A program made the translations under genes and the position numbers. Shown here piece after piece: positions 24,413-45,252 of a DNA stretch of 64,000 nucleotides (the stretch's first letter is position 1; each line of letters opens with the position of its first letter). Where the stretch lies: the NCBI GenBank assembly GCA_020854105.1, contig JADZGB010000043.1, forward strand, positions 124,001-188,000, read 5' to 3'. This stretch comes from Burkholderiales bacterium. Its GTDB lineage: Bacteria > Pseudomonadota > Gammaproteobacteria > Burkholderiales > SHXO01. A model generated the notes under the pieces. The model was given only the letters and a program-made list of their open reading frames with translations. It had not been told where the DNA came from and did not search any database.

Positions 24413-24440
24413 TTGACATTCTCGCTATATCTTTTGCAAT
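24413..24440 (+). promoter_or_regulatory. Promoter for the TonB-receptor operon, overlapped by a ModE box
   Basis: A perfect -35 (TTGACA, 24413-24418) is followed 16 bases later by a fair -10 (TGCAAT, 24435-24440). The ModE box begins four bases after the -35 and covers the -10, the geometry of a repressor that blocks RNA polymerase. The same TTGACA-N4-box layout recurs at 29705. Confidence 0.65.
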
Positions 24441-24446
24441 ATAGCG
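24423..24446. promoter_or_regulatory. ModE box 1 (perfect palindrome)
   Basis: CGCTATAT, eight bases, ATATAGCG: perfect 8-bp inverted arms in the layout known for ModE operators. It overlaps the promoter of the TonB-dependent receptor operon. A full-length ModE is encoded at 33678. Confidence 0.85.
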
Positions 24447-24523
24447 CCTGGACGCGGATAGAGCGTCGCTGTTGCTCGCAGCTGCACGAGGCGAGCGCAT
24501 GCTGCAATCGTCGGTGCGCCTCT

Positions 24524-24547
24524 CGTTATATTCATACTGATATATCG
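24524..24547. promoter_or_regulatory. ModE box 2
   Basis: CGTTATAT, eight bases, ATATATCG: 7 of 8 arm positions match. Its centre is 101 bp from that of box 1, close to a whole number of helical turns, so both lie on the same DNA face in the leader of the receptor gene. Confidence 0.78.
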
Positions 24548-24639
24548 CAATGTGTCGCACCGCTCTATTGCCCAATTCAATGTCATGCGGTGCGAACCTT
24601 CCAGGTACGGCCGGCACTCACCCAGGAGATCGTCGCTCC

Positions 24640-26712
24640 ATGCGCCCGTCCTGGCAGAACCTTTCCGCCGCCGTGGCATTCGCTCTGACCGCACCCGCCG
24701 TCGTAGTCGCCGCTGACCGTGAAACCGGCGAGCCCGCGCCCTACGTATACACACTGGGCCAGGTCACGGTGGTGACCGCGACCCCTGAGCCTATCGACAC
24801 CAGTGACGACGTGGTCACCAGAGAGGAGGTATGGACGTTCAACACGTCCACGCTGGACGAGGCGGTGAAGCTCACACCCGGCGTCATGACCACGATGGAC
24901 AGCAGCGGCCGCCGCAACGAGCACGACATCTTCGTGCGTGGCTTTGGGCGCTGGCAGGTCCCGCTGTCGATCGACGGTGTGCGCATCTACCTCCCGGCGG
25001 ACAACCGGCTCGACTTCCGACGCTTCCTGACCGCGGATCTGGCCGAAGTGCAGATCCAGAAGGGCTACGTCTCGGTCATCGATGGACCGGGTGCCATGGG
25101 CGGGGCAATCAACCTGGTCACGCGCAAGCCGACCGAGCTTCTCGAGGGGCATGTGCAGGCTGGAATCGACCTCGGACGCGATGGCAGCTACGACGCGTGG
25201 AACGGCTACGCATCGATCGGCACTCGCCAGGAGCGCTTCTATGCACATGCCAGTGTCAGCTACCAGGATCGTGACCACTGGCAGTTGCCGGGCAGCTTCG
25301 ACGGTACGTCGATACAGCCCGAAGGGGAACGCAACCGCTCGCACAACCGCGACTCCCGCGTCAACCTGAAGCTCGGATTCGAGCCTAATGTCAGCGATGA
25401 GTATTCCGTCAACTACACACGGCAGAAGGGTCGAAAGGGGGCGCCGCTCAACGTCTATAACGACCCGCCGAATCCGCCCAACAGCTATTGGGATTGGCCG
25501 ATGTGGGACATCGAGAACATCTACTTCCTGTCCAGCACGCGCCTGACCGATTCCAGCTACCTGAAGACGAAGATCTACTACAACACCTTCGACAACGCGC
25601 TGTATGCCTACGACAACGGGACCTACACCACGCAGTCCAACAACGGCCGCTTCCGCAGCTACTACGCCGACAAGAGCCATGGACTGAGCGTCGAGTACGG
25701 CTTCCGCGCGCTGCAGGACACCGACACCCGCCTGGCCGCACACTGGCGAAGCGACCGCCACGACGAGTACAACCTCAACCGGCCGACCCATCCGACCCTG
25801 AGCTTCCGCGAACCGACTCAGCGCAGCCGCGAGGACACCTGGTCCCTGGCTCTGGAAAACACCTGGCACGCCACTGGCGCGATCGACCTGCTGGTCGGCG
25901 TCAGCTATGACCGCAATGACATCAAGCAGGCGCAGGACTTCAACACGGCGCAAGGCCTGTTCGACTACCCGACCGGCGGCAGCGACGCATGGAACGCACA
26001 GGCGGCGGTGTACTGGCAGCAAAGCGTCAAATCGCGCTTCGGTCTGAGCGTATCGTCCCGCACGCGTTTTCCCACCTCGCTCGAGCGCTTCAGCACGCGT
26101 TTTGGCACTGCAATACCGAACCCGGATCTTGGAAGTGAACGCGCGACCAATGTGGAGCTTTCGTGGAAGAAGTCGATCTCCGACGACGTTCGCTTCAACA
26201 CGGCGCTGTTCTACGCCGATGTCGGCGACATGATCCAGACGGTCATCGTAGACGCCGGTCCGCCGCAGCTCACCCAGACCCGGAACGTTGGCGATGGCGA
26301 GTTCTACGGCGTCGAACTCGGAGCGGAGGCAAGCCTGTCAACCACGTTCGTCGTCGGCGGCACGTTCACCTGGATGCACCGGGAAATCGATGATCCGCTG
26401 CAGCCCGATTACCGACCCACCGGCGCTCCGGACAGCCAGGGACTGCTATACGCGACCTGGTCGCCGCTCGCGCGCTGGTCGTTCACGCCCAGCATCGAGT
26501 ATGCGAGCAATCGCTGGAATAGTGGTCCGGGTACCATCTACCTGCGCACCGGCCGGTACACATTGGTGAACATGCAGGTCCAGTGGGACGCCGCAAAGAA
26601 CGTGCGCTTCGCAGTCGGGGCCCGCAACCTGCTCGACGAGGAGTACGAACTGGCCTGGGGCTTTCCCGAGCAGGGTCGATCTATCTACGGCAAGGTGCAG
26701 ATTGACTTCTGA
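24640..26712 (+). CDS. TonB-dependent outer-membrane receptor (putative molybdenum-related uptake)
   Basis: 690 residues from ATG 24640, with AGGAG 11 bases upstream. A signal peptide ends near VVVAA, a TonB-box-like VTVVTA lies at about 42-47, the plug domain spans roughly 55-165 (FVRGFGRWQVPLSIDGVRIY, GPGAMGGAINLVTRKP), and a 22-strand-type barrel ends in the aromatic KVQIDF. The family imports metal chelates or scarce nutrients with TonB energy. Two ModE boxes lie upstream, and a binding protein plus a di-heme cytochrome follow. Inference: it imports molybdenum or a Mo-chelate. An iron-chelate receptor cross-controlled by ModE is the alternative. Confidence 0.9.
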   Translation: MRPSWQNLSAAVAFALTAPAVVVAADRETGEPAPYVYTLGQVTVVTATPEPIDTSDDVVTREEVWTFNTSTLDEAVKLTPGVMTTMDSSGRRNEHDIFVRGFGRWQVPLSIDGVRIYLPADNRLDFRRFLTADLAEVQIQKGYVSVIDGPGAMGGAINLVTRKPTELLEGHVQAGIDLGRDGSYDAWNGYASIGTRQERFYAHASVSYQDRDHWQLPGSFDGTSIQPEGERNRSHNRDSRVNLKLGFEPNVSDEYSVNYTRQKGRKGAPLNVYNDPPNPPNSYWDWPMWDIENIYFLSSTRLTDSSYLKTKIYYNTFDNALYAYDNGTYTTQSNNGRFRSYYADKSHGLSVEYGFRALQDTDTRLAAHWRSDRHDEYNLNRPTHPTLSFREPTQRSREDTWSLALENTWHATGAIDLLVGVSYDRNDIKQAQDFNTAQGLFDYPTGGSDAWNAQAAVYWQQSVKSRFGLSVSSRTRFPTSLERFSTRFGTAIPNPDLGSERATNVELSWKKSISDDVRFNTALFYADVGDMIQTVIVDAGPPQLTQTRNVGDGEFYGVELGAEASLSTTFVVGGTFTWMHREIDDPLQPDYRPTGAPDSQGLLYATWSPLARWSFTPSIEYASNRWNSGPGTIYLRTGRYTLVNMQVQWDAAKNVRFAVGARNLLDEEYELAWGFPEQGRSIYGKVQIDF

Positions 26713-26762
26713 TCGAAACCGCTCAGCGGTGCGTGCGGACAAGCGACATAAGGGGTGAGACG

Positions 26763-28127
26763 ATGAGTGCTCGGGGAATGATGCGCTGGCTGGGCGCTCT
26801 GGTGCTGTCGTGCATATGCACGTTCGGCGCGCACGCGGCGCAGCGGGTGGTGGTGGTGACCTCCTACGCGCAGGAAGTCATCTCCCGCATGGAGGCCGAG
26901 TTCACGCGCGCCAACACCGATCTCGCGCTCGACGTGATCTGGCGCATGCCGCGCGATGCGATGCCTTACCTGGAGAGCGAAGCCGGCAAGACGGTCGATG
27001 TGTACTGGGCGGCGTCGGGACGCAACTTCGCCGACTTGGCCGAGCAGGGTTTATTCGCGGCCCAGCCTGACTTGGCTGCGGCGCTGCCCGCGACGCTCGC
27101 GGGCTTCGAACTGTCGGACCAGAAGGCGCGCTACATGGCCAGCGAAGTGGCCTTGTACGGATTCGCCATCAATCCCGAGTACCTGGCCCGACGCGGGCTT
27201 CCCGAGCCGGCGAGCTGGCGCGACCTGGCCGATTCGCGCTACCGCGGGCACCTCCTCTTTCCGCTACCGTCGCGGGTCGGTTTCGCTCCGCTCATGATCG
27301 AAGCGCTGCTGCAACGAATGGGCTGGACCGGGGGGTGGGCGCTGCTCAGCGAGATCGCGTCCAACGCTCGGCTTTGGAGTCCGGGCGGAGCCTTCATCAC
27401 CGAGGAAGTGGCCGCTGCCAGCAAGGGCGTCGCCGTGACCATCGACTTCTTCGCGGCATCGGCGATCGCGAACGGAGCGCCCATGCGTTTCGTCTATCCG
27501 GACGTGCTCGCAGTTTCGCCTGGGCACGTGGGTATCCTGAGGAATGCGCCGAATGCGCAGGGCGCCAGACGCTTCGTCGCCTTCCTGCTGTCGGAAGCGG
27601 GTCAGCGCGCGCTGTTGCATCCGGACGTGCGCAAGCTGCCCGTGCATCCCGACCTCTTCAAGGAAGCCGATGCACCGGCGTTCGATCCCTATGCAGCGCC
27701 GCTGCCTGCGGGCTGGAGATACGATGCAAGACGAGGGGCAGTGCGCCTGGCGGTGGACAGCGCGGTGTTCGACGCGCTGATCACTGCGCAAGGTGCGGCA
27801 CACGCGCGACTGTGGCAGGCGCTGCGCGCCGCGCGTTCCGCTGCGCTCGCGCGTGGCGATGCTGCGGCGCTGTCGCTCGTGGCCCGGGTGCAGGCATCGG
27901 CCTTGCGCCCGCCCATCGACGAGGCACAATCTCATTCGCCCGAGATACGCGAAGGACTGGGAGGGCGGGCGGTGCGCGGCGGCACCGAAGCGCCGCCGGA
28001 GGCCTCCGCGCTGTCGACGCAGTGGCAGTCGGCGATTGCCAGGCAGTACGCGGACGCGGTCGCACGGCTGGAGGCGTCCGGCCTGCTGGCCGAGGACTGG
28101 TCTTCCCAGGCGGGTGTCAAGCAATGA
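26763..28127 (+). CDS. Periplasmic ABC-type substrate-binding protein with a C-terminal extension
   Basis: 454 residues. A signal peptide (ALVLSCICTFGAHA) precedes a type-2 periplasmic binding fold of the Fe(III)/anion class (VVVVTSYAQEVISRM, VDVYWAASGRNF, GILRNAPNAQGARRFVAFLL). From about residue 310 there is an extra, mainly helical region of some 140 residues that ordinary members lack. No ABC permease or ATPase adjoins it. It follows the receptor by 50 bp and overlaps the di-heme gene by ATGA, so it is the middle gene of the operon. The ligand is unknown; molybdate or a metal complex is inferred from regulation. Confidence 0.82.
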   Translation: MSARGMMRWLGALVLSCICTFGAHAAQRVVVVTSYAQEVISRMEAEFTRANTDLALDVIWRMPRDAMPYLESEAGKTVDVYWAASGRNFADLAEQGLFAAQPDLAAALPATLAGFELSDQKARYMASEVALYGFAINPEYLARRGLPEPASWRDLADSRYRGHLLFPLPSRVGFAPLMIEALLQRMGWTGGWALLSEIASNARLWSPGGAFITEEVAAASKGVAVTIDFFAASAIANGAPMRFVYPDVLAVSPGHVGILRNAPNAQGARRFVAFLLSEAGQRALLHPDVRKLPVHPDLFKEADAPAFDPYAAPLPAGWRYDARRGAVRLAVDSAVFDALITAQGAAHARLWQALRAARSAALARGDAAALSLVARVQASALRPPIDEAQSHSPEIREGLGGRAVRGGTEAPPEASALSTQWQSAIARQYADAVARLEASGLLAEDWSSQAGVKQ

Positions 28128-29494
28128 ACCTGGTGCTGCGTGCCGTCGCAGCGATCGCCCTGCTGCTGTGCGGGCTCGCACATGGGCGCGAACCGTCAGT
28201 GCCGGCTGCCGGCGGCTCGTCCACCACCACACTGGAATCGCGCGAGGCGTACTCGCAGCCGAGCCAGGCGCTGCCACCGGCGCTGCTTGCGGGCTTCTTC
28301 GCCGGGCGCAGCCTGTTCCGTCAGGTGTGGATCATCGCACCGGCGCTGGACGGCGAAGTCGATGGACTCGGCCCGACGTTCAACCGTGCATCGTGCCTGG
28401 CGTGCCATCTGAAGAACGGCCGCGGGGGCGCGCCCGAAAGCCACGAGGAGCCCCTGCGCGGAATGCTGGTGCGCCTCAGCGTGCCAGGCATCGGTCCGCA
28501 TGGCGGGCCCGTTCCACACCCGGTGTACGGCGATCAGTTCAACGATGCGGCAATTCCCGGCGTGCAGAGGGAAGGGCGCGTGGCCATCGACTGGATCCGC
28601 CACGACGAGGTACTTGCCGATGGCACCATCGTCGAGCTGCGGCGGCCGGTGGTGTCGCTGGCCGAACCGGGCTTCGGGCCTCCGGGCGACGACATCCTGC
28701 TGTCGCCGCGCATCGGAGCGCCGGTGTTCGGGCTGGGATTGCTCGAGGCGGTGAGCGAGAAGACCATGCGCGAACTCGCGGCGCGCGCCAAGCCCGACGG
28801 CGTGCGCGGTCGCGTGAACGAAGTGTGGGACCACAGCCTCGGACGTACGGTGATCGGCCGCTTTGGCTGGAAGGCCAACGCCGGAACGCTGCGCCAGCAG
28901 ATCGCCTCTGCCCTTCTGGGCGACCTGGGCATCACCTCCACCGTGCTGGAACGGGAGAACTGCCCGCCGGCGCAGCGTGCCTGTGCCGATGCGGTGAACG
29001 GCGGCACCCCGGAGCTGTCCGAGGCGCAGCTCCAGGCCATGGTGCTGTACCACCAGGCGCTGTCGGTACCGGCAGCACGCACGCACGACGATCCCGCCGC
29101 GCTGCGCGGGGAGCAGGTGTTCCACCGGGCCGGTTGCGGTAGTTGTCACCTGCCGCAACTGACCACCGGTACGCACGAGCAACATGCCTGGCTGTCTCAT
29201 CAGCCCATTGCGCCGTATTCCGACCTGCTGCTGCACGACATGGGCGAAGGCCTGGCGGATGACCGGCCGGACTACCTGGCCTCGGGGCGGGAGTGGCGCA
29301 CGCCACCGCTGTGGGGAATCGGATTGACTGCGCTGATCAGCGAGCGCGAGAGCTATCTGCACGACGGCCGTGCACGCTCGCTGATCGAGGCGATCCTGTG
29401 GCATGGCGGAGAGGCGCAGGCCGCGCGCGAGCGTGTGCGCGCCCTGCCGGCCGCCGAGCGTGAGGACCTGCTGCGATTCCTGCGCAGTCTGTAG
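28124..29494 (+). CDS. Di-heme c-type oxidoreductase (DUF1111 family)
   Basis: 456 residues with a signal peptide. Two heme-c sites are present: CLACH near residue 90 and CGSCH near 340. The C-terminal motif HDMGEGLADDRPD and the LHDGRARSLIEAILWHGGEA stretch (quoted in part: LHDGRARSLIEAILWHG) are typical of this MauG/cytochrome-c-peroxidase-related family. These proteins often neighbour metal-uptake genes. Its start overlaps the binding-protein stop (ATGA), implying coupled translation. A role in periplasmic redox release of a chelated metal is an inference. Confidence 0.9.
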   Translation: MNLVLRAVAAIALLLCGLAHGREPSVPAAGGSSTTTLESREAYSQPSQALPPALLAGFFAGRSLFRQVWIIAPALDGEVDGLGPTFNRASCLACHLKNGRGGAPESHEEPLRGMLVRLSVPGIGPHGGPVPHPVYGDQFNDAAIPGVQREGRVAIDWIRHDEVLADGTIVELRRPVVSLAEPGFGPPGDDILLSPRIGAPVFGLGLLEAVSEKTMRELAARAKPDGVRGRVNEVWDHSLGRTVIGRFGWKANAGTLRQQIASALLGDLGITSTVLERENCPPAQRACADAVNGGTPELSEAQLQAMVLYHQALSVPAARTHDDPAALRGEQVFHRAGCGSCHLPQLTTGTHEQHAWLSHQPIAPYSDLLLHDMGEGLADDRPDYLASGREWRTPPLWGIGLTALISERESYLHDGRARSLIEAILWHGGEAQAARERVRALPAAEREDLLRFLRSL

Positions 29495-29704: not shown

Positions 29705-29710
29705 TTGACA
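29705..29710 (+). promoter_or_regulatory. -35 element for the DUF2325 gene, next to ModE box 3
   Basis: Perfect TTGACA four bases before ModE box 3, the same arrangement as at 24413. No strong -10 can be picked because the box occupies its place. Confidence 0.55.
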
Positions 29711-29714
29711 GGAG

Positions 29715-29738
29715 CGCTATATTCACACGAATATAGCG
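29715..29738. promoter_or_regulatory. ModE box 3 (perfect palindrome)
   Basis: CGCTATAT, eight bases, ATATAGCG: the same perfect arms as box 1 but an unrelated spacer, which argues for selection on the arms. It overlaps the expected -10 region of the DUF2325 gene promoter. Confidence 0.85.
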
Positions 29739-29779: not shown

Positions 29780-29803
29780 CGCTATATTTCTCTCAACATA
29801 ACG
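29780..29803. promoter_or_regulatory. ModE box 4
   Basis: CGCTATAT, eight bases, ACATAACG: 6 of 8 arm positions pair. ACATAACG also appears, as I recall it, as the right arm of the Escherichia coli modA operator. The centre is 65 bp downstream of box 3 and 54 bp before the chosen ATG. Confidence 0.7.
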
Positions 29804-29845
29804 TAACGGGCGGACGTGATGCATGAAGCAAGAGGATCGAACGAA

Positions 29846-31147
29846 ATGATGGCGATCTCGGCCGTAGTCCCCGCAGCGCCCAACACTGTGCGAAGACAGG
29901 ACTGGTTGCCGGCCCTCGGCAGAAAGCCGGTTCCCTCCTTGGCCGCGAAAAGGCAGCGCCGCAAGCTCCTGGACCTGGATTCGCACCTGCACTGCTCGAT
30001 CGTCGGGACCTGTCTCACCGTGGCCGAACTCCGGCGTATCGTCGTCCGGCGCCTCGGTCAGCATCTGGCGCGCGAGTCAGACCTGGAGATCCATGAGCAT
30101 GGTGTGCGCCTCGCATCCGACGCCGAGGCGAGCCGGGAGCTGTCGCGCGAGCTCGACCGCAAGTTCGAGCTGTCCATCAAGCGCTTCGGCCGTGCGGATA
30201 CCGAAGTCGGCATAGGTGCGCTGTGGGAAGAGGCCAAGCGAAGCGGCGACATCCCTGCCGGCTACTGGTGCCTGGTGACTCATCCGGCAACCTCGCGCGG
30301 GCTATTGCAGCGCGCGGTCGGCGACGTGCACATGCTCTCCCACATAGTCGGCGCGTCCAATAGGGCCGACATCCGCCGGCTTGCGCAGCTGGACGAGCGC
30401 TGTGGCAGGCTCGACGACAAGGTCGCCCGCCAGCAGGCTCGCATCCAGGCGCTGTCGATCGAGCGGGATGCGGCGAGGCGCGAGATTGGTGCAGCCCTGC
30501 AGTGTGTGCCCGCGTCTTCTTCCGGGCACCCGGGGCAGGAATCGCAGGATGCCGCGCAGTTCCTGCGACAGGCCGTGGCGGCACTGGAGCAACGGCTGGT
30601 CGCTGCAAAACGGCGGCGCGAGCATGCGGAGGCGACAAGCGCAGCGGACCGCGCAGCCGTCCAGCGCCTGGAGGCGCAGCTCCGGGCAAGCGCTGCGCGG
30701 GAACGCATGCTGGAGGCGGAACTGCAGGCAGCCGCCACGCTGCTGGAGCAGTCCGGTACCGCCAAGGGTTGCGCGAACGATGAAGGGACCAGACTCGCAG
30801 GCTGCAGCGTGCTCTACGTAGGTGGCCGTCCTGGTGCACTGCATGCCATGCGGGCGTATTGCGAAACGCGCGGCTGCGGCTTCATGCACCACGATGGAGG
30901 GCTGGAGGTGCGTATCGGTCTGCTCGATTCCTGGATCCGCGGGGCGGATCTGGTCGTGTTCCCGGCGGACTGCGTGAGCCACGACGCCGCCCTGGCAGTC
31001 AAGCGTGCCTGCCGGCAGGCAGGGCGGCCATTCAAGGCCCTGCGCTCCTCGGGAGTCACCAGCTTCGTGGCCGCCCTCGAGTGCTGGGAGCCGACCGGGG
31101 AAGACGAGCAGGCGATGGCATGCGACGACGCCGTCGCCGGTTGCTGA
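29846..31147 (+). CDS. DUF2325 coiled-coil protein under ModE control
   Basis: About 433 residues from ATG 29846 (AGAGGA nine bases upstream; in-frame starts at 29816/29819 lack a good site). The N-terminal part carries LDSHLHCSIVGTCLTVAELR, with His and two Cys, as in other long DUF2325 proteins. Residues 180-310 are a long coiled coil. The C-terminal DUF2325 domain starts at CSVLYVGGRPGAL and holds YCETRGCGFMHHDGG and FPADCVSH. Cysteine and histidine content suggests metal or redox binding. Two ModE boxes lie upstream. Function unknown; a molybdenum-related role is inferred from them. Confidence 0.8.
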   Translation: MMAISAVVPAAPNTVRRQDWLPALGRKPVPSLAAKRQRRKLLDLDSHLHCSIVGTCLTVAELRRIVVRRLGQHLARESDLEIHEHGVRLASDAEASRELSRELDRKFELSIKRFGRADTEVGIGALWEEAKRSGDIPAGYWCLVTHPATSRGLLQRAVGDVHMLSHIVGASNRADIRRLAQLDERCGRLDDKVARQQARIQALSIERDAARREIGAALQCVPASSSGHPGQESQDAAQFLRQAVAALEQRLVAAKRRREHAEATSAADRAAVQRLEAQLRASAARERMLEAELQAAATLLEQSGTAKGCANDEGTRLAGCSVLYVGGRPGALHAMRAYCETRGCGFMHHDGGLEVRIGLLDSWIRGADLVVFPADCVSHDAALAVKRACRQAGRPFKALRSSGVTSFVAALECWEPTGEDEQAMACDDAVAGC

Positions 31148-31237
31148 CTGAGTTGATGCCCATCCTCACGGGCTGAGCCGAAACGGACGGGAATCAGGCT
31201 GCACTTGATCGGACCATTCATGACAAGGAGAGCAGTA

Positions 31238-32404
31238 ATGAGGAGAGAGGCAGTGATGCGTCGCGCATTGGGTGTCCTGGCGCTGGCAACGGCGGTACAG
31301 GCGGCATATGCCGCCGGTCCGGAGCCCTATGCCGTCAAGGGCGAGGTCATCCAGCGCCTGAACGGGTTCGACAACCCCGAGGGCGCAATCTTCAGCGCCG
31401 ACGGGAAGTACGTGTTCATTTCCAACGCTGCCGAACTCGGTATGCCGGACAAGGGCTTCTTCTGGACGCACGAGGGCGGTTACATCAGCAAGCTCGAGGT
31501 TCAGGCCGACGGCACGCTCGAGATGGTCAACGAGCGCCTGATCAGCGGACTGACCGGGCCATTGGGAATGGCGGTCAATCCCGTCGCCACCAGGACCTTC
31601 CCGAAGGGAACGATCTTCCTGGTCGAAGCCTGGGCGCCGCTGGCGGCGGCCGACGGCACGCCGGTGAAGGACGCGAAACTGCTCGATCCCAAGATCGTCG
31701 CCTTCAACACCGACGGCAAGGTTCTTGGCTCGATCAAGCTCGGACCGGGCTCGGCGGCGCACAAGGCCGCCGGGGTCACGGCCACACTGGCCAATGCGCT
31801 GGCCTTCGACAAGGCCGGAAATCTCTATCTGGCGGACACGGGCATCGCGGGCGGACTGTTCGAGCCGGCCATCGCCACGACGGGCGGTGGCGTGTACATG
31901 TTCCCGATCACCTCGCTCGACGCGCTGGCGGCAGGCAAGGACGCACCGGTATCGTTCATCTCCATGCCGGACAGCGGGCCTGACGGGATCGAAGTCGCGG
32001 CCGATGGATCGATCCATGTGAACAGCGTGGGCGCCGCGGCCGGACTGAAGGATCCAGCGGAAGGCGGCATGTATCGCCTGCAGGCTTCGGATCTCGGATC
32101 GGGCAAGCTGCCGGAGCCGTTCGCCAGGGGACTGGGGGCGCTGGACGGTCTCGATTTCGTCGGAACGATCCGCCTGGATACCGAGATCAAGAACACCAAC
32201 AGCGTGGTGGTGACCCCGATGCCGGAGGGCAAGCCGTATCGGCTCACCTACGACCAGGACATCACCCTCGCCGGACCTGCTGACATCGCCGTGCGCAAGA
32301 ATGCCGACGGCAGCTATCTCCTGGTGATTCCCGAATTGTCCGCTACGTTGCCCAACAACAAGGACAACCCGGTCACCGTGGTGAAGCTCCCGGCACACTT
32401 CTGA
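31238..32404 (+). CDS. Exported SMP-30/gluconolactonase-like beta-propeller protein
   Basis: 388 residues from ATG 31238, chosen for AAGGAG seven bases upstream (an ATG at 31256 is also possible). A signal peptide ends near QAAYA. Repeated blades such as NPEGAIFSADGKYVFISN, GLTGPLGMAVNP, ALAFDKAGNLYLADTG and GPDGIEVAADGSIHVNS mark a six-bladed NHL/SMP-30-type propeller. It follows the DUF2325 gene by 90 bp on the same strand and may share its transcript. Ligand and activity are unknown. Confidence 0.82.
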   Translation: MRREAVMRRALGVLALATAVQAAYAAGPEPYAVKGEVIQRLNGFDNPEGAIFSADGKYVFISNAAELGMPDKGFFWTHEGGYISKLEVQADGTLEMVNERLISGLTGPLGMAVNPVATRTFPKGTIFLVEAWAPLAAADGTPVKDAKLLDPKIVAFNTDGKVLGSIKLGPGSAAHKAAGVTATLANALAFDKAGNLYLADTGIAGGLFEPAIATTGGGVYMFPITSLDALAAGKDAPVSFISMPDSGPDGIEVAADGSIHVNSVGAAAGLKDPAEGGMYRLQASDLGSGKLPEPFARGLGALDGLDFVGTIRLDTEIKNTNSVVVTPMPEGKPYRLTYDQDITLAGPADIAVRKNADGSYLLVIPELSATLPNNKDNPVTVVKLPAHF

Positions 32405-33070: not shown

Positions 33071-33499
33071 TCAGCCGGAAATGGCCAGGATGACGTGGCT
33101 CGCCTTGATCAGCGCGGTCGTCGTCTTGCCCGGCGCGAGCTGCAGATCGGCCACGGCGTCATTGGTCACTACCGCGTGCAGGTCCGCTCCGCCCTTCAAG
33201 CGCAGCGTCACCTCGCTGTTCACCGCTCCCTTCTGGACCGCGGTCACCTTTCCTTCGAACTGGTTGCGGGCGCTGAAGCGATAGCCATCGGTGTCGGTGA
33301 GCAGGGTAACCAGGGGTGCCTTCACCAGCGCCATCGCGCGCTTTCCAACGGCAATGCCGAGCGAGGCGGCGCTCGCACTGGTCACCACCGCGACCAGCTT
33401 GTCTCCCCCGGCGAGATCGATCGCGACTTCCGTGTGGACCGGACCATTCTGAACGTTCGATACGACACCTTGAAACTGATTGCGTGCGCTGACCTTCAT
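33071..33499 (-). CDS. Molbindin-type protein with two Mop domains
   Basis: 142 residues made of two tandem Mop (TOBE) repeats: KVSARNQFQGVV ... VTSASAASLGIAVG ... ALVKAP, and FSARNQFEGKV ... VTNDAVADLQLAPG ... ALIKASHVIL. Such proteins bind several molybdate anions and act as cytoplasmic Mo stores or buffers. An AAGGAGA site sits five bases before the ATG. It is divergent from modE (178-bp gap that contains ModE box 5), so the same operator could serve both. Confidence 0.93.
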   Translation of the reverse strand: MKVSARNQFQGVVSNVQNGPVHTEVAIDLAGGDKLVAVVTSASAASLGIAVGKRAMALVKAPLVTLLTDTDGYRFSARNQFEGKVTAVQKGAVNSEVTLRLKGGADLHAVVTNDAVADLQLAPGKTTTALIKASHVILAISG

Positions 33500-33630
33500 G
33501 CAGTTCTCCTTGCGATGGATGTAACGAAACGGGCGCCTTTCTGCTCCCGGCGCATGCGCACGTGTTCTCAAACCCGCTCGCTACATCCCACCATAGCGCT
33601 TCGCTGGGGAGGGCGGAATATGGCGCCATG

Positions 33631-33654
33631 CGCTATATACTGCGCGATATAGCC
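33631..33654. promoter_or_regulatory. ModE box 5, in the modE/molbindin divergent region
   Basis: CGCTATAT, eight bases, ATATAGCC: 7 of 8 arm positions match. It ends 23 bp before the modE ATG and lies 132 bp upstream of the di-Mop gene. Autoregulation of modE by ModE is the likely meaning. Confidence 0.82.
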
Positions 33655-33677: not shown

Positions 33678-34496
33678 ATGGCAAAGCGGCGATTGCAGGC
33701 AAGCCTCGAGGTCAAGACGGATCACGGCGCAGTGCTGGGCGAGACCCGCATTCGGCTGCTCGAGGCAATGGACAAGTATGGCTCCATCGCCCAGGCCGCG
33801 CGCCGGGTGCCGCTGTCCTACAAGGCAGCGTGGGATGCATTGGACGACTTGAACAACCTCGCCGACTTTCCGGTGATCGAGCGCAGTGTGGGCGGCGCAG
33901 GCGGCGGTGGCACGCGCCTGACCGACTACGGGCGCAGGCTCGTGGCGATGTTCCGGGCGATCGAGCATGAGTACGGGAGTGTCATCGACCAGGTGTACGC
34001 CAGGGTGGGCGACGCCGATGGCGCCGACGCGGCAGCATTCCAGCGCCTGCTGCGCCGTATCAGCCTGCGCACGAGCGCGCGCAATCAGTTCGCCTGCCGG
34101 GTCACCCGAATCCTGTCCGGACCGGTATCAGCGCAGGTAGGCCTGGCGCTGGACGAGACCTGCGAACTGCAGGCAATGCTCACCAACGACTCCATGGTAG
34201 ACCTGCGCCTGGCGCCCGGCACGGAAGTGCTTGCATTGGTGAAGGCGCAGGCCGTGTTCCTCCTCGGCGATACCGGGATTCGCACCAGCGTGAGCAATCA
34301 CCCGAGCGGCATCGTGAGCAGGATCCAGCGTGGACCGGTGAACAGCGAGGTCTCGGTCGATCTCCCGCTGCGCCATATACGCCACGTGACGGCCGTAGTG
34401 ACCAGCGAGTCGGTTGCCGCGCTCGCGCTCGAGATCGGATTGCCGGTGACCGCGGCATTCCAGGCCTCCAGCGTGAGCCTGGCGACGCTTGCCTGA
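33678..34496 (+). CDS. modE: ModE, molybdate-dependent transcriptional regulator
   Basis: 272 residues, the full ModE plan. A LysR-like winged helix (GSIAQAARRVPLSYKAAWDA) with the glycine-rich wing GGAGGGGTRLTDYG spans 20-85, followed by a dimer helix. Two Mop domains follow (TSARNQFACRVTRI and SVSNHPSGIVSRI repeats), binding molybdate at the dimer interface. Mo-loaded ModE represses uptake genes and may activate Mo-enzyme genes. Box 5 sits at its own promoter. It is the obvious regulator of the six boxes in this window. Confidence 0.95.
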   Translation: MAKRRLQASLEVKTDHGAVLGETRIRLLEAMDKYGSIAQAARRVPLSYKAAWDALDDLNNLADFPVIERSVGGAGGGGTRLTDYGRRLVAMFRAIEHEYGSVIDQVYARVGDADGADAAAFQRLLRRISLRTSARNQFACRVTRILSGPVSAQVGLALDETCELQAMLTNDSMVDLRLAPGTEVLALVKAQAVFLLGDTGIRTSVSNHPSGIVSRIQRGPVNSEVSVDLPLRHIRHVTAVVTSESVAALALEIGLPVTAAFQASSVSLATLA

Positions 34497-41338: not shown

Positions 41339-41362
41339 CGTTGTATTGAGAACGATATAACG
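41339..41362. promoter_or_regulatory. ModE box 6, upstream of porin-modABC
   Basis: CGTTGTAT, eight bases, ATATAACG: 7 of 8 arm positions match. It ends 26 bp before the TTG start of the porin gene. This is the expected site for ModE repression of molybdate transport. Confidence 0.82.
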
Positions 41363-41387
41363 CAGCCAGGCATCCGAGGAGACGATA

Positions 41388-42995
41388 TTGGGCGGACAGG
41401 AACACGCAAGGCGATTGCGGCATCCGGTTGCCGCGTTGGCGCTGGCCGCCCTTGCCGCACCGTCGAGCGCGGGAGCGCAGGACACGGAGGAGCGCATACG
41501 GCGCCTGGAGGAACAGCTGCAGGCAATCACGCAGGAGTTGCACGAATTGAAGGCGGGACTCGCGCAGCCGCCATCGGTGCGGCAGGCGGCCGAGGCTGCG
41601 CCGGCAGAGGCACGGGCGGCCAGCGCACGCGCCGAGGCGGCCGCGGCTCGCATGGATGCCACCGCGCTCGACGAGCGGGTCCAGACTCTGGAACAGCGCC
41701 TGGATCAGCAGGGCATCCGCGCGCAGCTGGCCGACGGCCTGATCCTCGAGGATCCCGGGCAGCGATGGCGACTGCGCATGACCGGCCGGGCACTGGGCGA
41801 TTACCGTTCGTTCTCTCCCGACGTGGTGGCGGCGGACACCTTCAGCATCCGCCAGGCCCGCCTGGGCGTGAACCTCCAGGTTCTGCGCGACTGGTCCATC
41901 TATGTCGAGGGCGAATACGCCAGCACCGCGATCAGCCAGAACGCCTTTCTCACCAACGCGTACGTGGACTGGCAGGTGATGGGGCAGCAGCTGACGCTCC
42001 GGCTGGGTCAGTTCAAGCCTCAGTTCGGTTTGGAGCACACGGATCGGGTGCCCTTCTTCGATTTCACCGAACGCGCGCTTCCGGCAGGTCTGATCCAGAA
42101 CTTTCTCTTCGATCGCGGCCTGATGGCCTTCGGCTCCCCGCTGCCCGGCTTCTACTACGGCGTGAGCGTGACCAACGGCACCGGCCAGAACATCGACGAG
42201 CGCCAGACCGATTCGACCGAAACGACACAGGACGGGAAGGACTTCACGGCCCGCTTCGCGTGGAATCTGGCACAGTCGATGGCGTGGCAGGATTCCATCG
42301 TCCACGCAGGCGTGTCGTACAGGCGCGGCACGCAGGCCAACTCCACCTCCAACCCGTACTTCGCCGCATCGCTCACCACCGAGGGGCGTGGCGTCACCTT
42401 CTTCGCGCCGCAGGCGTTCAACTCCAGCAACGGAACTTCTCAGGTGGGCTCGATCGATCGGCGGCTGCAGGGAGCGGAGGCCATCCTGGCGCACGGCCCG
42501 GTCAAGCTCGCCGGCGAGTACATCACCGCCCGCTACTCGGGTGATCGCTCGGCCGCGCCGCTGGGCGAGTTCGAGCGCGACATCTCCGGCTACTACCTGA
42601 GTGCCATGTGGCTGATCACCGGCGAGCATTACGCCGACGCGTACAAGGGGTCGTTCGTTCAGCGCATCAGGCCGCGCAACGCCTTCTCGTGGAAGGACGG
42701 CACCTGGGGAGCGTGGGAGATCGGCCTGCGCTACAGCAGCATCGACGCATCCGATTTCAAGGCATCGAATGCCCCCTTCACCGGACGCCCCGGCACTTCG
42801 GCTACTGCCCTGGTCACCAGCCAGTCCACGGGTGCACAGGCCTACACGTTCGGCCTGAAGTGGATGCCCAATTCGTACGTACGTCTGATGTTCGACTACA
42901 TCCGCACCGAGTTCGACGATGACATCGTGATTGCCGGCAGATCGACCGGTCACGAGAACGCGGTAAATGTCCGCGCACAGTTCGACTTCTTCTGA
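41388..42995 (+). CDS. OprP/OprO-type anion-selective porin with N-terminal coiled coil
   Basis: 535 residues from a TTG start decided by GAGGAGA five bases upstream. Signal peptide to about residue 30, a coiled coil with IRRLEEQLQAITQELHELK and a second heptad stretch to 110, then a 16-strand barrel of the phosphate-selective porin family (ARLGVNLQVLRDWSIYVEGEY, LRLGQFKPQFGLE) ending in aromatic QFDFF. It leads directly into modA (8 bp) under ModE box 6. Inference: an outer-membrane channel for molybdate or related oxyanions. Confidence 0.88.
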   Translation: MGGQEHARRLRHPVAALALAALAAPSSAGAQDTEERIRRLEEQLQAITQELHELKAGLAQPPSVRQAAEAAPAEARAASARAEAAAARMDATALDERVQTLEQRLDQQGIRAQLADGLILEDPGQRWRLRMTGRALGDYRSFSPDVVAADTFSIRQARLGVNLQVLRDWSIYVEGEYASTAISQNAFLTNAYVDWQVMGQQLTLRLGQFKPQFGLEHTDRVPFFDFTERALPAGLIQNFLFDRGLMAFGSPLPGFYYGVSVTNGTGQNIDERQTDSTETTQDGKDFTARFAWNLAQSMAWQDSIVHAGVSYRRGTQANSTSNPYFAASLTTEGRGVTFFAPQAFNSSNGTSQVGSIDRRLQGAEAILAHGPVKLAGEYITARYSGDRSAAPLGEFERDISGYYLSAMWLITGEHYADAYKGSFVQRIRPRNAFSWKDGTWGAWEIGLRYSSIDASDFKASNAPFTGRPGTSATALVTSQSTGAQAYTFGLKWMPNSYVRLMFDYIRTEFDDDIVIAGRSTGHENAVNVRAQFDFF

Positions 42996-43003
42996 AGGTG
43001 ATC

Positions 43004-43756
43004 ATGCGATCCTTTGCTGCCGGAGTCCTGCTTTGCGGCCTGCTGCTGTCGGCATTGCCCTCGCGCGCGGCCGACCTGACCGTATCTGCCGCCGCCAGCC
43101 TGACCAACGCCTTCGGCGAGATCGGCAGGCTCTACGAGCAGGTCAATCCGGGATCGAAGGTGCTGTTCAACTTCGGCGCTTCCGGTTCGCTCCTGCAGCA
43201 GATCGCCCGCGGCGCACCGGTGGACGTGTTCGCGACGGCGGACCTGGAGACCATGGACCGGGCACAGAAGCAGAACCTCATCGCGCGGGACACGCGCTCG
43301 AACTTCGCGGCGAACAGGCTGGTGCTGGTGGTGCCGCAGGATGCGAAGGCACATGTGGCGGCGCTGGCGGATCTGTCCGGTCCCGGGGTCGCGCGCATCG
43401 CCCTGGGCAACCCGGAGAGCGTGCCCGCGGGGCGATACGCCAGAGAGGTACTGGAGTCGGCCGGTCTGTGGGAATCCCTGAAGGACAAGTACGTCTTCGG
43501 ACAGAACGTGAGGCAGGTGCTGGACTACGTTGCACGAGGCGAGGTCGATGCCGCGATGGTGTATTCGACCGATTCCAGGGCGATGAAAGGTCGGGTCGAC
43601 GTGGTCGTCGAACTGGCGACCATGACGGCGATCCTCTATCCCATCGCGGCAGTCAAGGGCGGCGGCAACGAGAAGTCGGCGCGCAGGTTCATCGATCTGG
43701 TGCGCTCCGAGCAGGGACAGGCAGTGCTGTCCAGATACGGTTTCAAGGCGCCTTGA
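43004..43756 (+). CDS. modA: ModA, periplasmic molybdate-binding protein
   Basis: 250 residues from ATG 43004 with GAAGGTG just upstream. Signal peptide (LLCGLLLSALPSRA) and the ModA landmarks AAASLTNAFGEIG, FNFGASGSLLQQI, GAPVDVFATAD and DAAMVYSTD. It binds molybdate or tungstate and delivers it to ModBC. It starts eight bases after the porin stop. Confidence 0.95.
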   Translation: MRSFAAGVLLCGLLLSALPSRAADLTVSAAASLTNAFGEIGRLYEQVNPGSKVLFNFGASGSLLQQIARGAPVDVFATADLETMDRAQKQNLIARDTRSNFAANRLVLVVPQDAKAHVAALADLSGPGVARIALGNPESVPAGRYAREVLESAGLWESLKDKYVFGQNVRQVLDYVARGEVDAAMVYSTDSRAMKGRVDVVVELATMTAILYPIAAVKGGGNEKSARRFIDLVRSEQGQAVLSRYGFKAP

Positions 43757-43823
43757 ACGCACGGCGGAAGCGGACACATGCGCTACGGACCGCGATCGAG
43801 TTCGTGTAGCATTGCCACCCGCC

Positions 43824-44489
43824 ATGCTCGGCTCCGCCGTGGTTCCATTGCTGCTGACGCTCAAGGTCGCGGGCTTCGCGACCCTGCTCGCGCTCGTCAT
43901 GGGGGTGGCGGTTGCCTTCGTACTGGCGCGCCACGACTTCCCGGGACGGGATCTGCTGGATGCGGTCTGCACCCTTCCGCTGGTGATGCCGCCAACGGTG
44001 CTCGGTTACTACCTCGTCGTGCTGATCGGACGACGCGGCTGGATCGGCGAATGGTTGTGGGAGACCTTCGGCATCACGCTGATGTTCACCTGGCAGGGCG
44101 CGGTGTTTGCCGCGGCAATCGTGGCCTTTCCGCTGGTGTTCAAGGCGGCGCGCGCCGCCTTCGAGGGTGTGGATCGCCAGCTGGAGAGCGCGGCACGCAC
44201 CCTTGGTGTCTCGGAGTGGGGGGTCTTCTTCCGCGTGACCTTCCCGCTTGCCTGGCGTGGTGTGCTGGCCGGGACCATGCTGGCGTTCGCACGCGCGATG
44301 GGCGAGTTCGGCGCGACGCTGATGGTAGCCGGCAACATTCCCGGCAGGACGCAGACGCTCTCTCTGGCGGTGTACGACGCCGTCCAGGCCGGCCACGACG
44401 ATCTCGCCAACTTCCTCGTGCTGCTCACTTCGGTGGTGTGCGTGGCGATCCTGTTCGGATCGGGCAAGCTCCTCAAGCCACGCTACTGA
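43824..44489 (+). CDS. modB: ModB, molybdate ABC transporter permease
   Basis: 221 residues, five to six membrane segments. The cytoplasmic EAA loop reads LESAARTLGVSEWGVFFRVT followed by FPLAWRGVLAG, and FARAMGEFGATLMVAGNIPG is the usual ModB C-terminal signature. ATG 43824 gives the normal length; a TTG at 43812 is possible. The 67-bp gap to modA shows no obvious signal. Confidence 0.95.
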   Translation: MLGSAVVPLLLTLKVAGFATLLALVMGVAVAFVLARHDFPGRDLLDAVCTLPLVMPPTVLGYYLVVLIGRRGWIGEWLWETFGITLMFTWQGAVFAAAIVAFPLVFKAARAAFEGVDRQLESAARTLGVSEWGVFFRVTFPLAWRGVLAGTMLAFARAMGEFGATLMVAGNIPGRTQTLSLAVYDAVQAGHDDLANFLVLLTSVVCVAILFGSGKLLKPRY

Positions 44490-44496
44490 TTCGCTT

Positions 44497-45252
44497 ATGA
44501 AGCTGCGCGTCGACATCCGCAAGACGCTGCGTGCACGCGATCGCGCGTTCATGCTGGAGGCGCGCTTCACCACCGAGGACGACCGCGTGGTCGTGTTCGG
44601 CGCGTCGGGTTCGGGCAAGAGCGTGACGATGCAGTGCATCGCCGGATTGATCTCCCCCGACGAGGGCATCATCCAGGTCGGAGACCGGGTGCTGTTCGAT
44701 TCCGGGGCGGGAATCGATCTGCCGCCCCAGGTTCGCCGCGTCGGCTATCTGTTCCAGGATTTTGCCCTGTTTCCGCATCTGAACGTCGAGGACAACGTCG
44801 GCTTCGCACTGCGCCGCGGCGCATGCGGCCGGATGGATGCGGTGCAGCGGCAGGCGGTGCACGATCTGCTGCGCCTGTTCGAGATCGAGGGGCTCAGCCG
44901 CAACTTCCCGTGGCAGCTGTCCGGGGGACAGCGTCAGCGCGTGGCGCTGGCGCGGGCGCTGATACTCCAGCCGGAGATCATGCTGCTCGACGAACCGCTG
45001 TCGGCGCTCGATCCGCTGTTGCGTGGACGCGTACGCGCGGAACTGGTCGCACTCCAGGAGCGCTTCGACGTGCCCATGATGGTGATCACGCACGATCCCG
45101 CGGACGTCGAGACGATGGCCGAGACCATCCTGGTATACAGCCACGGCAAGGTAGCCCGGCAGGTGCGCGCGTCGCGGTTCGCGCAGGAGGGGGCGCTTGG
45201 CAGAGCGGACATCGGCGGGATCCTGACCGCGGCGTATGTCGACGGCCCCTGA
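44497..45252 (+). CDS. modC: ModC, molybdate ABC transporter ATPase lacking the C-terminal Mop domain
   Basis: 251 residues. Walker A GASGSGKS, Q-loop YLFQDFALFPHL, signature LSGGQRQRVALARA, Walker B MLLDEPLSALD and switch His in VITHDPAD are intact. Typical ModC proteins are about 350 residues and end in a Mop/TOBE domain that senses cytoplasmic molybdate; here the protein stops right after the ATPase domain. A separate single-Mop gene follows 90 bp downstream and may supply that function. Confidence 0.95.
   Translation: MKLRVDIRKTLRARDRAFMLEARFTTEDDRVVVFGASGSGKSVTMQCIAGLISPDEGIIQVGDRVLFDSGAGIDLPPQVRRVGYLFQDFALFPHLNVEDNVGFALRRGACGRMDAVQRQAVHDLLRLFEIEGLSRNFPWQLSGGQRQRVALARALILQPEIMLLDEPLSALDPLLRGRVRAELVALQERFDVPMMVITHDPADVETMAETILVYSHGKVARQVRASRFAQEGALGRADIGGILTAAYVDGP

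Follow-up and report, generated by a model that had tools for sequence, protein, structure and literature searches.

Gene content of the receptor operon

We analysed a 64-kb stretch of DNA (G000:C43:124001-188000, hereafter the window), which is part of a 4.07 Mb genome. Three genes encoding a TonB-dependent receptor, a periplasmic binding protein and a di-haem protein (a DHOR) lie together in this window, behind two boxes of the type recognized by the molybdenum regulator ModE. The features are as follows.

24413..24418, + strand: TTGACA, candidate -35 element of the operon promoter, inferred from the sequence because the consensus scan made no call
24423-24446, no strand assigned: ModE box 1, CGCTATATCTTTTGCAATATAGCG, a perfect inverted repeat (8-8-8) that overlies the presumed -10 region
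24524-24547, no strand assigned: ModE box 2, CGTTATATTCATACTGATATATCG
24640..26712, + strand: TonB-dependent outer-membrane receptor with plug and barrel (PF00593 7e-34, PF07715 4e-16)
26763..28127, + strand: periplasmic solute-binding protein with a C-terminal helical extension (PF13343 5e-22, SBP_bac_6)
28124..29494, + strand: di-haem c-type DHOR (DUF1111, COG3488-like) with two CxxCH motifs (PF06537 8e-83)

The likeliest start of the receptor is the ATG at 24640, which is preceded by AGGAGA. Its plug and beta-barrel domains exceed the curated cut-offs (TonB_dep_Rec/Plug), and its score against the siderophore receptor model TIGR01783 (157.6 bits) does not reach the cut-off of 223.5. The nearest relatives by sequence are iron-catecholate and B12 receptors (CirA and BtuB). 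In the DHOR, both CxxCH motifs and an additional cysteine pair are invariant across 28 sequences, and the single meaningful fold match of its structure model is the di-haem gamma subunit of hydrazine synthase. This match does not identify the reaction, and redox action of the DHOR on a cargo or its ligand is an inference. Neither an ABC permease nor an ATPase gene is present within the window operon, and no imelysin domain was found among the operon proteins.

The start of the DHOR gene overlaps the stop of the binding-protein gene as ATGA (28124), and the same type of overlap, with the DHOR starting at the last base of the frame, was found in at least ten homologous loci. A gap of 50 bases separates the receptor gene from the binding-protein gene. 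A preliminary description of the locus had assigned the three gene families, which the Pfam matches confirm, and had presented all three genes as one ATGA-coupled operon, which held only for the binding-protein and di-haem pair.

ModE boxes are confined to one region of the genome

Searching the window with the pattern CGNTATATN8ATATANCG gave two perfect matches before the receptor gene. The box is of the E. coli type of ModE operator, ATCGNTATATA-N6-TATATANCGAT (PMC545781). With up to one mismatch allowed, six such boxes occur in the 4.07 Mb genome, all inside the 64-kb window, where the number expected by chance is 0.00; a reversed control pattern had zero matches across the genome at the same tolerance. 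Two features of a ModE regulon are present, an E. coli-type palindrome in the operon promoter region and a gene for full-length ModE (HTH plus TOBE), and the genome-wide specificity of the box makes the regulatory assignment to ModE strong.

Box 1 begins 4 bases downstream of the TTGACA at 24413-24418 and, judged by sequence alone, would thus overlie the -10 region. An identical arrangement of TTGACA, four nucleotides and a box lies upstream of the DUF2325 gene, at 29705. The promoter scan called no sigma-70 promoter at the 24413 TTGACA/box site, so the operon promoter itself is only inferred. Of the two regulatory claims made previously, that of two upstream ModE boxes held (both are real and none is expected by chance), and that of one box covering the promoter held in part, in that the layout fits. 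Molybdenum-dependent binding and repression by ModE at these boxes are likewise inferred, with no footprinting or reporter data.

The remaining four boxes precede other genes of the window: two lie before the DUF2325 gene, one lies between mop and modE, and one precedes a porin-modABC operon.

29715..29738, no strand assigned: ModE box before the DUF2325 gene (pattern search)
29780..29803, no strand assigned: second ModE box before the DUF2325 gene (pattern search)
29816..31147, + strand: co-regulated DUF2325 protein (PF10087 3e-19)
33071..33571, - strand: double Mop molybdate-binding protein, divergent from modE (TIGR00638 2e-47)
33631..33654, no strand assigned: ModE box between mop and modE (pattern search)
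33678..34496, + strand: ModE regulator with HTH_1 and two TOBE domains (domain search)
41339..41362, no strand assigned: ModE box of the porin-modABC operon (pattern search)
41388..42995, + strand: Porin_O_P outer-membrane porin under the ModE box (PF07396 4e-33)
43076..43747, + strand: ModA (SBP_bac_11 match, 4.7e-60)
44497..45252, + strand: ModC-type ATPase (from its translation)

We take modB to lie between modA and modC. The modABC genes are 13 kb downstream of the receptor operon, preceded by a Porin_O_P gene that has a ModE box of its own; neither this operon, with its box at 41339, nor the modE and double-Mop genes had been mentioned in the preliminary description. The porin that leads this operon (41339-45252) is of the phosphate-selective type and looks like a dedicated molybdate porin, and a Porin_O_P gene also lies directly 5' of the receptor trio in L143 and L146. 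In a same-genus relative (L036), a DUF2325 homologue and the binding-protein gene are transcribed divergently, with two perfect ModE boxes between them. The DUF2325 protein is possibly another partner in molybdenum homeostasis. On its 3' side, at 31205-32404, lies a gene for a secreted protein of 399 aa with the look of a beta-propeller and no Pfam or NCBIfam match, which could also belong to the ModE-controlled unit. As for nitrogenase, the window genome gave only weak matches to NifH-family fragments and no sign of an alternative nitrogenase; the genome is therefore probably not that of a diazotroph.

The trio recurs beside molybdenum and tungsten genes

We searched about 1,840 genomes, and also plasmids, for the binding protein; a contig scan with the binding protein alone identified at least one locus, in a MAG of the same genus. 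Close relatives of the binding protein form a clade (clade A) that is split from a sister clade (clade B) with support of 100/99, although the cleanness of this split is partly a product of sampling because both sets were gathered by similarity. Clade A proteins are nearly always encoded with a receptor and a di-haem gene, and their clusters span several proteobacterial lineages, which comprise several families of Burkholderiales, further orders of that class and a second class to which Azospirillum belongs; Azospirillum argentinense Az39 is one carrier (ABAZ39_RS27510 to RS27525). An ABC permease or ATPase is missing from most clade A loci, yet such genes accompany the binding protein in clade B, and the clade B locus that we examined in Paracoccus denitrificans lies among phosphatase-type genes. 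We considered and rejected clade B as the same system, as its members are ordinary ABC operons with no ModE sites upstream.

Genes for the transport, storage and regulation of molybdenum or tungsten recur around the clade A trio. In L137, genes for a molybdopterin formate dehydrogenase, a ModE-type HTH protein, ModA, a permease-like ORF and ModC come directly before the trio; in L140, a ModE-type HTH gene precedes it and modA follows. The neighbours are modE, mop and modA in L148 and L149, and two mop genes with modE in L041 and L134, with nifK also present in L041. In L088, tupABC with a TOBE-domain ATPase lies directly 5' of the receptor and binding-protein genes, and a SulP gene is found near the trio in L038, L039 and L136. 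TonB genes were detected nearby by tblastn in L078, L087, L098 and L148-L151; TonB neighbours were Pfam-checked in L078, L087 and L138, and TonB is also present in Azospirillum.

The clusters vary in composition. An adjacent receptor is missing in L036, L041 and L134. The receptor and binding protein are present with no DHOR gene nearby in L150, L151 and L088; the haem step may therefore be dispensable, or its gene may lie at another site. One cluster (L138:6951-15174) contains two pairs of binding protein and DHOR, a TonB gene and a receptor, with mop nearby; its second binding protein is very divergent. In Azospirillum sp. TSH58 (L099:9031-10250), the binding-protein gene is split in two frames and its neighbours look intact. 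The short ModE-type HTH proteins that adjoin modA and the trio in two loci (L137:3502-3858 and L140:5607-5948) have no TOBE domain.

Upstream regions carry ModE sites, and Fur sites only at chance level

We trained a ModE half-site matrix only on the four boxes of the window that lie outside the receptor operon and applied it to 410-base upstream regions, with a threshold of p<=0.02 against 200 dinucleotide shuffles each. A significant ModE site precedes the trio in 24 of 30 clade A loci, compared with 0 of 26 in clade B. Across whole loci, the corresponding counts were 41 sites in 526 kb and 1 site in 451 kb. Related loci are not independent of one another. The six clade A loci without a significant site are L037, L040, L088, L138, L140 and L145. 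In L148 and L149 the ModE boxes have a 9-base spacer, and the same variant precedes modE, mop, modA and the receptor gene; this shared variant is the best evidence that ModE reads the motif in each organism.

Run through the same test, the Fur consensus reached p<=0.02 in only 1 of 31 upstream regions, which is the level expected by chance. We therefore rejected control by iron through Fur, an outcome that the preliminary description had named as one that would refute its reading and that, as far as sequence can tell, did not occur. The check that it had proposed, a search for the same three genes beside ModE boxes in other genomes, is answered by the recurrence of the trio and the sites at most of its loci. 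Computation shows which gene families are present, where the ModE sites lie and that they are conserved, and that the trio stays linked to molybdenum or tungsten genes.

The binding protein lacks known iron and sugar-phosphate ligands

The structure model of the binding protein (pLDDT 91.8) was compared with solved folds using Foldseek. The nearest were the sugar-phosphate binders VcA0625 and AfuA, followed by ferric-binding proteins and P5PA. For residue comparisons, we left out the row from a plasmid record and rebuilt the alignment. The Fe(III) ligands of FbpA, Tyr195 and Tyr196, align with Phe229 and Phe230 of the binding protein, and two of the three sugar ligands of AfuA (His205, Asp206 and Glu229; PMC4546632), the His205/Asp206 pair, fall on the same two phenylalanines, which are kept in at least 90% of clade A. 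The position of the third, Glu229, is variable in clade A, and the phosphate-binding region of AfuA (Ser37 and Thr150) is apparently altered. The phenylalanine pair at the ligand columns indicates that the protein binds neither iron in the manner of FbpA nor sugar phosphates in the manner of AfuA. Its conserved residues match no known molybdate site, and the identity of the bound ligand cannot be read from the sequence. The protein was also ruled out as a ModA orthologue, as its best matches are SBP_bac_6/AfuA-like and the genuine ModA is encoded at 43076-43747. Computation also shows that Fur sites and Fe(III)-binding ligands are absent and that the operon has no inner-membrane transporter of its own.

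A predicted route for molybdenum acquisition

The ModE sites, the conserved association with molybdenum and tungsten genes, the lack of Fur sites and the lack of Fe(III) or sugar ligands together make it very likely (probability of roughly 0.8) that the operon is a ModE-repressed, TonB-driven system for acquiring molybdenum, and possibly also tungsten, although no experiment has been done on any member. This was the core claim of the preliminary description, and it is supported by the specificity of the boxes, the recurring trio and its molybdenum and tungsten neighbours; the Mo-chelate cargo and periplasmic redox step that it also proposed remain inferences.

In the predicted sequence of events, scarcity of molybdate would leave ModE free of molybdenum and off its boxes, and the operon would be expressed. 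The receptor would then spend TonB energy to move a molybdenum species through the outer membrane, and the binding protein would catch this species in the periplasm. The di-haem DHOR may act on the species or its ligand and so free molybdate, which ModABC, whose genes lie 13 kb away behind a ModE box of their own, would take into the cytoplasm. Repression by molybdenum-bound ModE, a Mo-chelate as cargo, the order of the periplasmic steps and the redox chemistry are all inferred. Since a ModE-controlled porin and modABC are already in place for free molybdate, the receptor probably serves another form of molybdenum, most simply a chelate; this argument favours a chelate cargo and does not prove it.

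Several observations count against a molybdenum acquisition system. The receptor is nearest to receptors for iron-catecholate and B12, iron-uptake operons with imelysin are known to include DUF1111 proteins (PMC3143127), and the conserved residues of the binding protein include no known molybdate site. In addition, six loci have no significant ModE site and some have no di-haem gene or adjacent receptor.

A bolder reading, which we consider possible but less likely than not, is that the operon represents a widespread and undescribed molybdophore pathway, in which the TonB receptor would import Mo-chelates, the binding protein and the di-haem enzyme would break the complex by redox chemistry, and molybdate would then be handed to ModABC, TupABC, SulP or a FecCD-type importer. 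If true, this would make it the first outer-membrane system dedicated to a group 6 metal.

Alternative explanations

The alternative that survives best, and that remains possible, is uptake of bare molybdate or tungstate by the receptor without a chelator, with the binding protein buffering the oxyanion and the di-haem protein having an ancillary redox role. The relatives AfuA, VcA0625 and P5PA bind small phosphate-bearing ligands, which are similar to tetrahedral oxyanions, and the neighbouring tupABC, modABC and SulP all transport bare oxyanions. Against this, the known cargoes of TonB-dependent receptors are mostly chelates or large molecules, free molybdate is already served by the ModE-controlled porin, and the phosphate-binding residues of AfuA appear not to be retained.

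Import of a substitute metal, tungsten or vanadium, when molybdenum is scarce is unlikely. In its favour, the receptor and binding-protein genes of L088 are directly 3' of tupABC, and TonB receptors of Azotobacter vinelandii are induced when both molybdenum and vanadium are absent (PMC9542535). Most loci, however, carry molybdenum-type genes (modABC, mop and modE), and an alternative nitrogenase is not evident in the window genome.

We consider it very unlikely that this is an iron (siderophore) operon incidentally under ModE that feeds iron to molybdenum enzymes or nitrogenase. Iron uptake is the usual setting of such receptor families and of DUF1111 (PMC3143127), and in Acidithiobacillus ferrooxidans a combined Fe/Mo receptor cluster with a Fur box has been predicted beside nif (PMC2631029). 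Yet the 31 upstream regions contain no Fur site above chance, the Tyr-Tyr pair that binds Fe(III) is swapped for Phe-Phe, the partners are molybdenum and tungsten genes (with trio genes adjoining tupABC in one case and formate dehydrogenase with modABC in another), and the window genome probably does not belong to a diazotroph.

Finally, an opportunistic or chance operon, with real boxes and a function unrelated to metal supply such as redox defence in low-molybdenum cells, has a precedent in ModE control of non-transporter genes in some bacteria (for example, the predicted regulon of Geobacter sulfurreducens; PMC2700814) but is also very unlikely, as the link to molybdenum and tungsten transport, storage and regulation recurs across many lineages and a TonB receptor with a binding protein is an uptake architecture.

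Significance and comparison with known systems

In many soils and fresh waters, molybdenum is often tied up with organic matter and sets a limit on nitrogen fixation, the use of nitrate and the oxidation of formate. Its passage across the outer membrane has so far been regarded as passive, and the literature searched identifies no receptor for Mo-chelates. A conserved, ModE-controlled receptor with named carriers makes this question directly testable, and the operon points to a dedicated, energy-driven route for scavenging molybdenum across many bacteria. Neither the trio nor a ModE-controlled TonB system for molybdenum was described in the literature searched; regulon databases of the RegPrecise type were outside its scope, and an unpublished or database-only prediction may exist.

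Among iron-related systems, the Acidithiobacillus ferrooxidans cluster (PMC2631029), itself only a genomic prediction, similarly combines receptors and TonB genes with a ModA-like binding protein beside nif. It differs in having a Fur box rather than a ModE box and complete or partial iron-siderophore ABC transporters, and a di-haem DHOR is not mentioned in the sections of that paper that bear on it. Operons of the imelysin/EfeUOB type (PMC3143127) share the di-haem family and the setting of periplasmic metal uptake, whereas the window operon has no imelysin, has ModE in place of Fur and has a binding protein from another family. The solved structures closest to the binding protein, in sequence as well as fold, come from AfuABC (PMC4546632) and P5PA, but the sugar-binding His/Asp pair is missing from the window protein and the operon has no cognate ABC permease or ATPase.

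The molybdophores of Azotobacter vinelandii, with which molybdenum is taken up under limitation as a complex with secreted chelators (Bellenger et al. 2008, cited in PMC3440940), are the type of cargo proposed here. No outer-membrane receptor or ModE-controlled trio has been identified for that uptake in the literature searched, and no obvious genes for chelator synthesis lie beside the operon in the window. The classical ModABC system uses ModA as its binding protein and has no outer-membrane receptor, TonB step or haem protein, but the ModABC/ModE regulon resembles the operon described here in its E. coli-type ModE boxes and in supplying molybdenum under scarcity.
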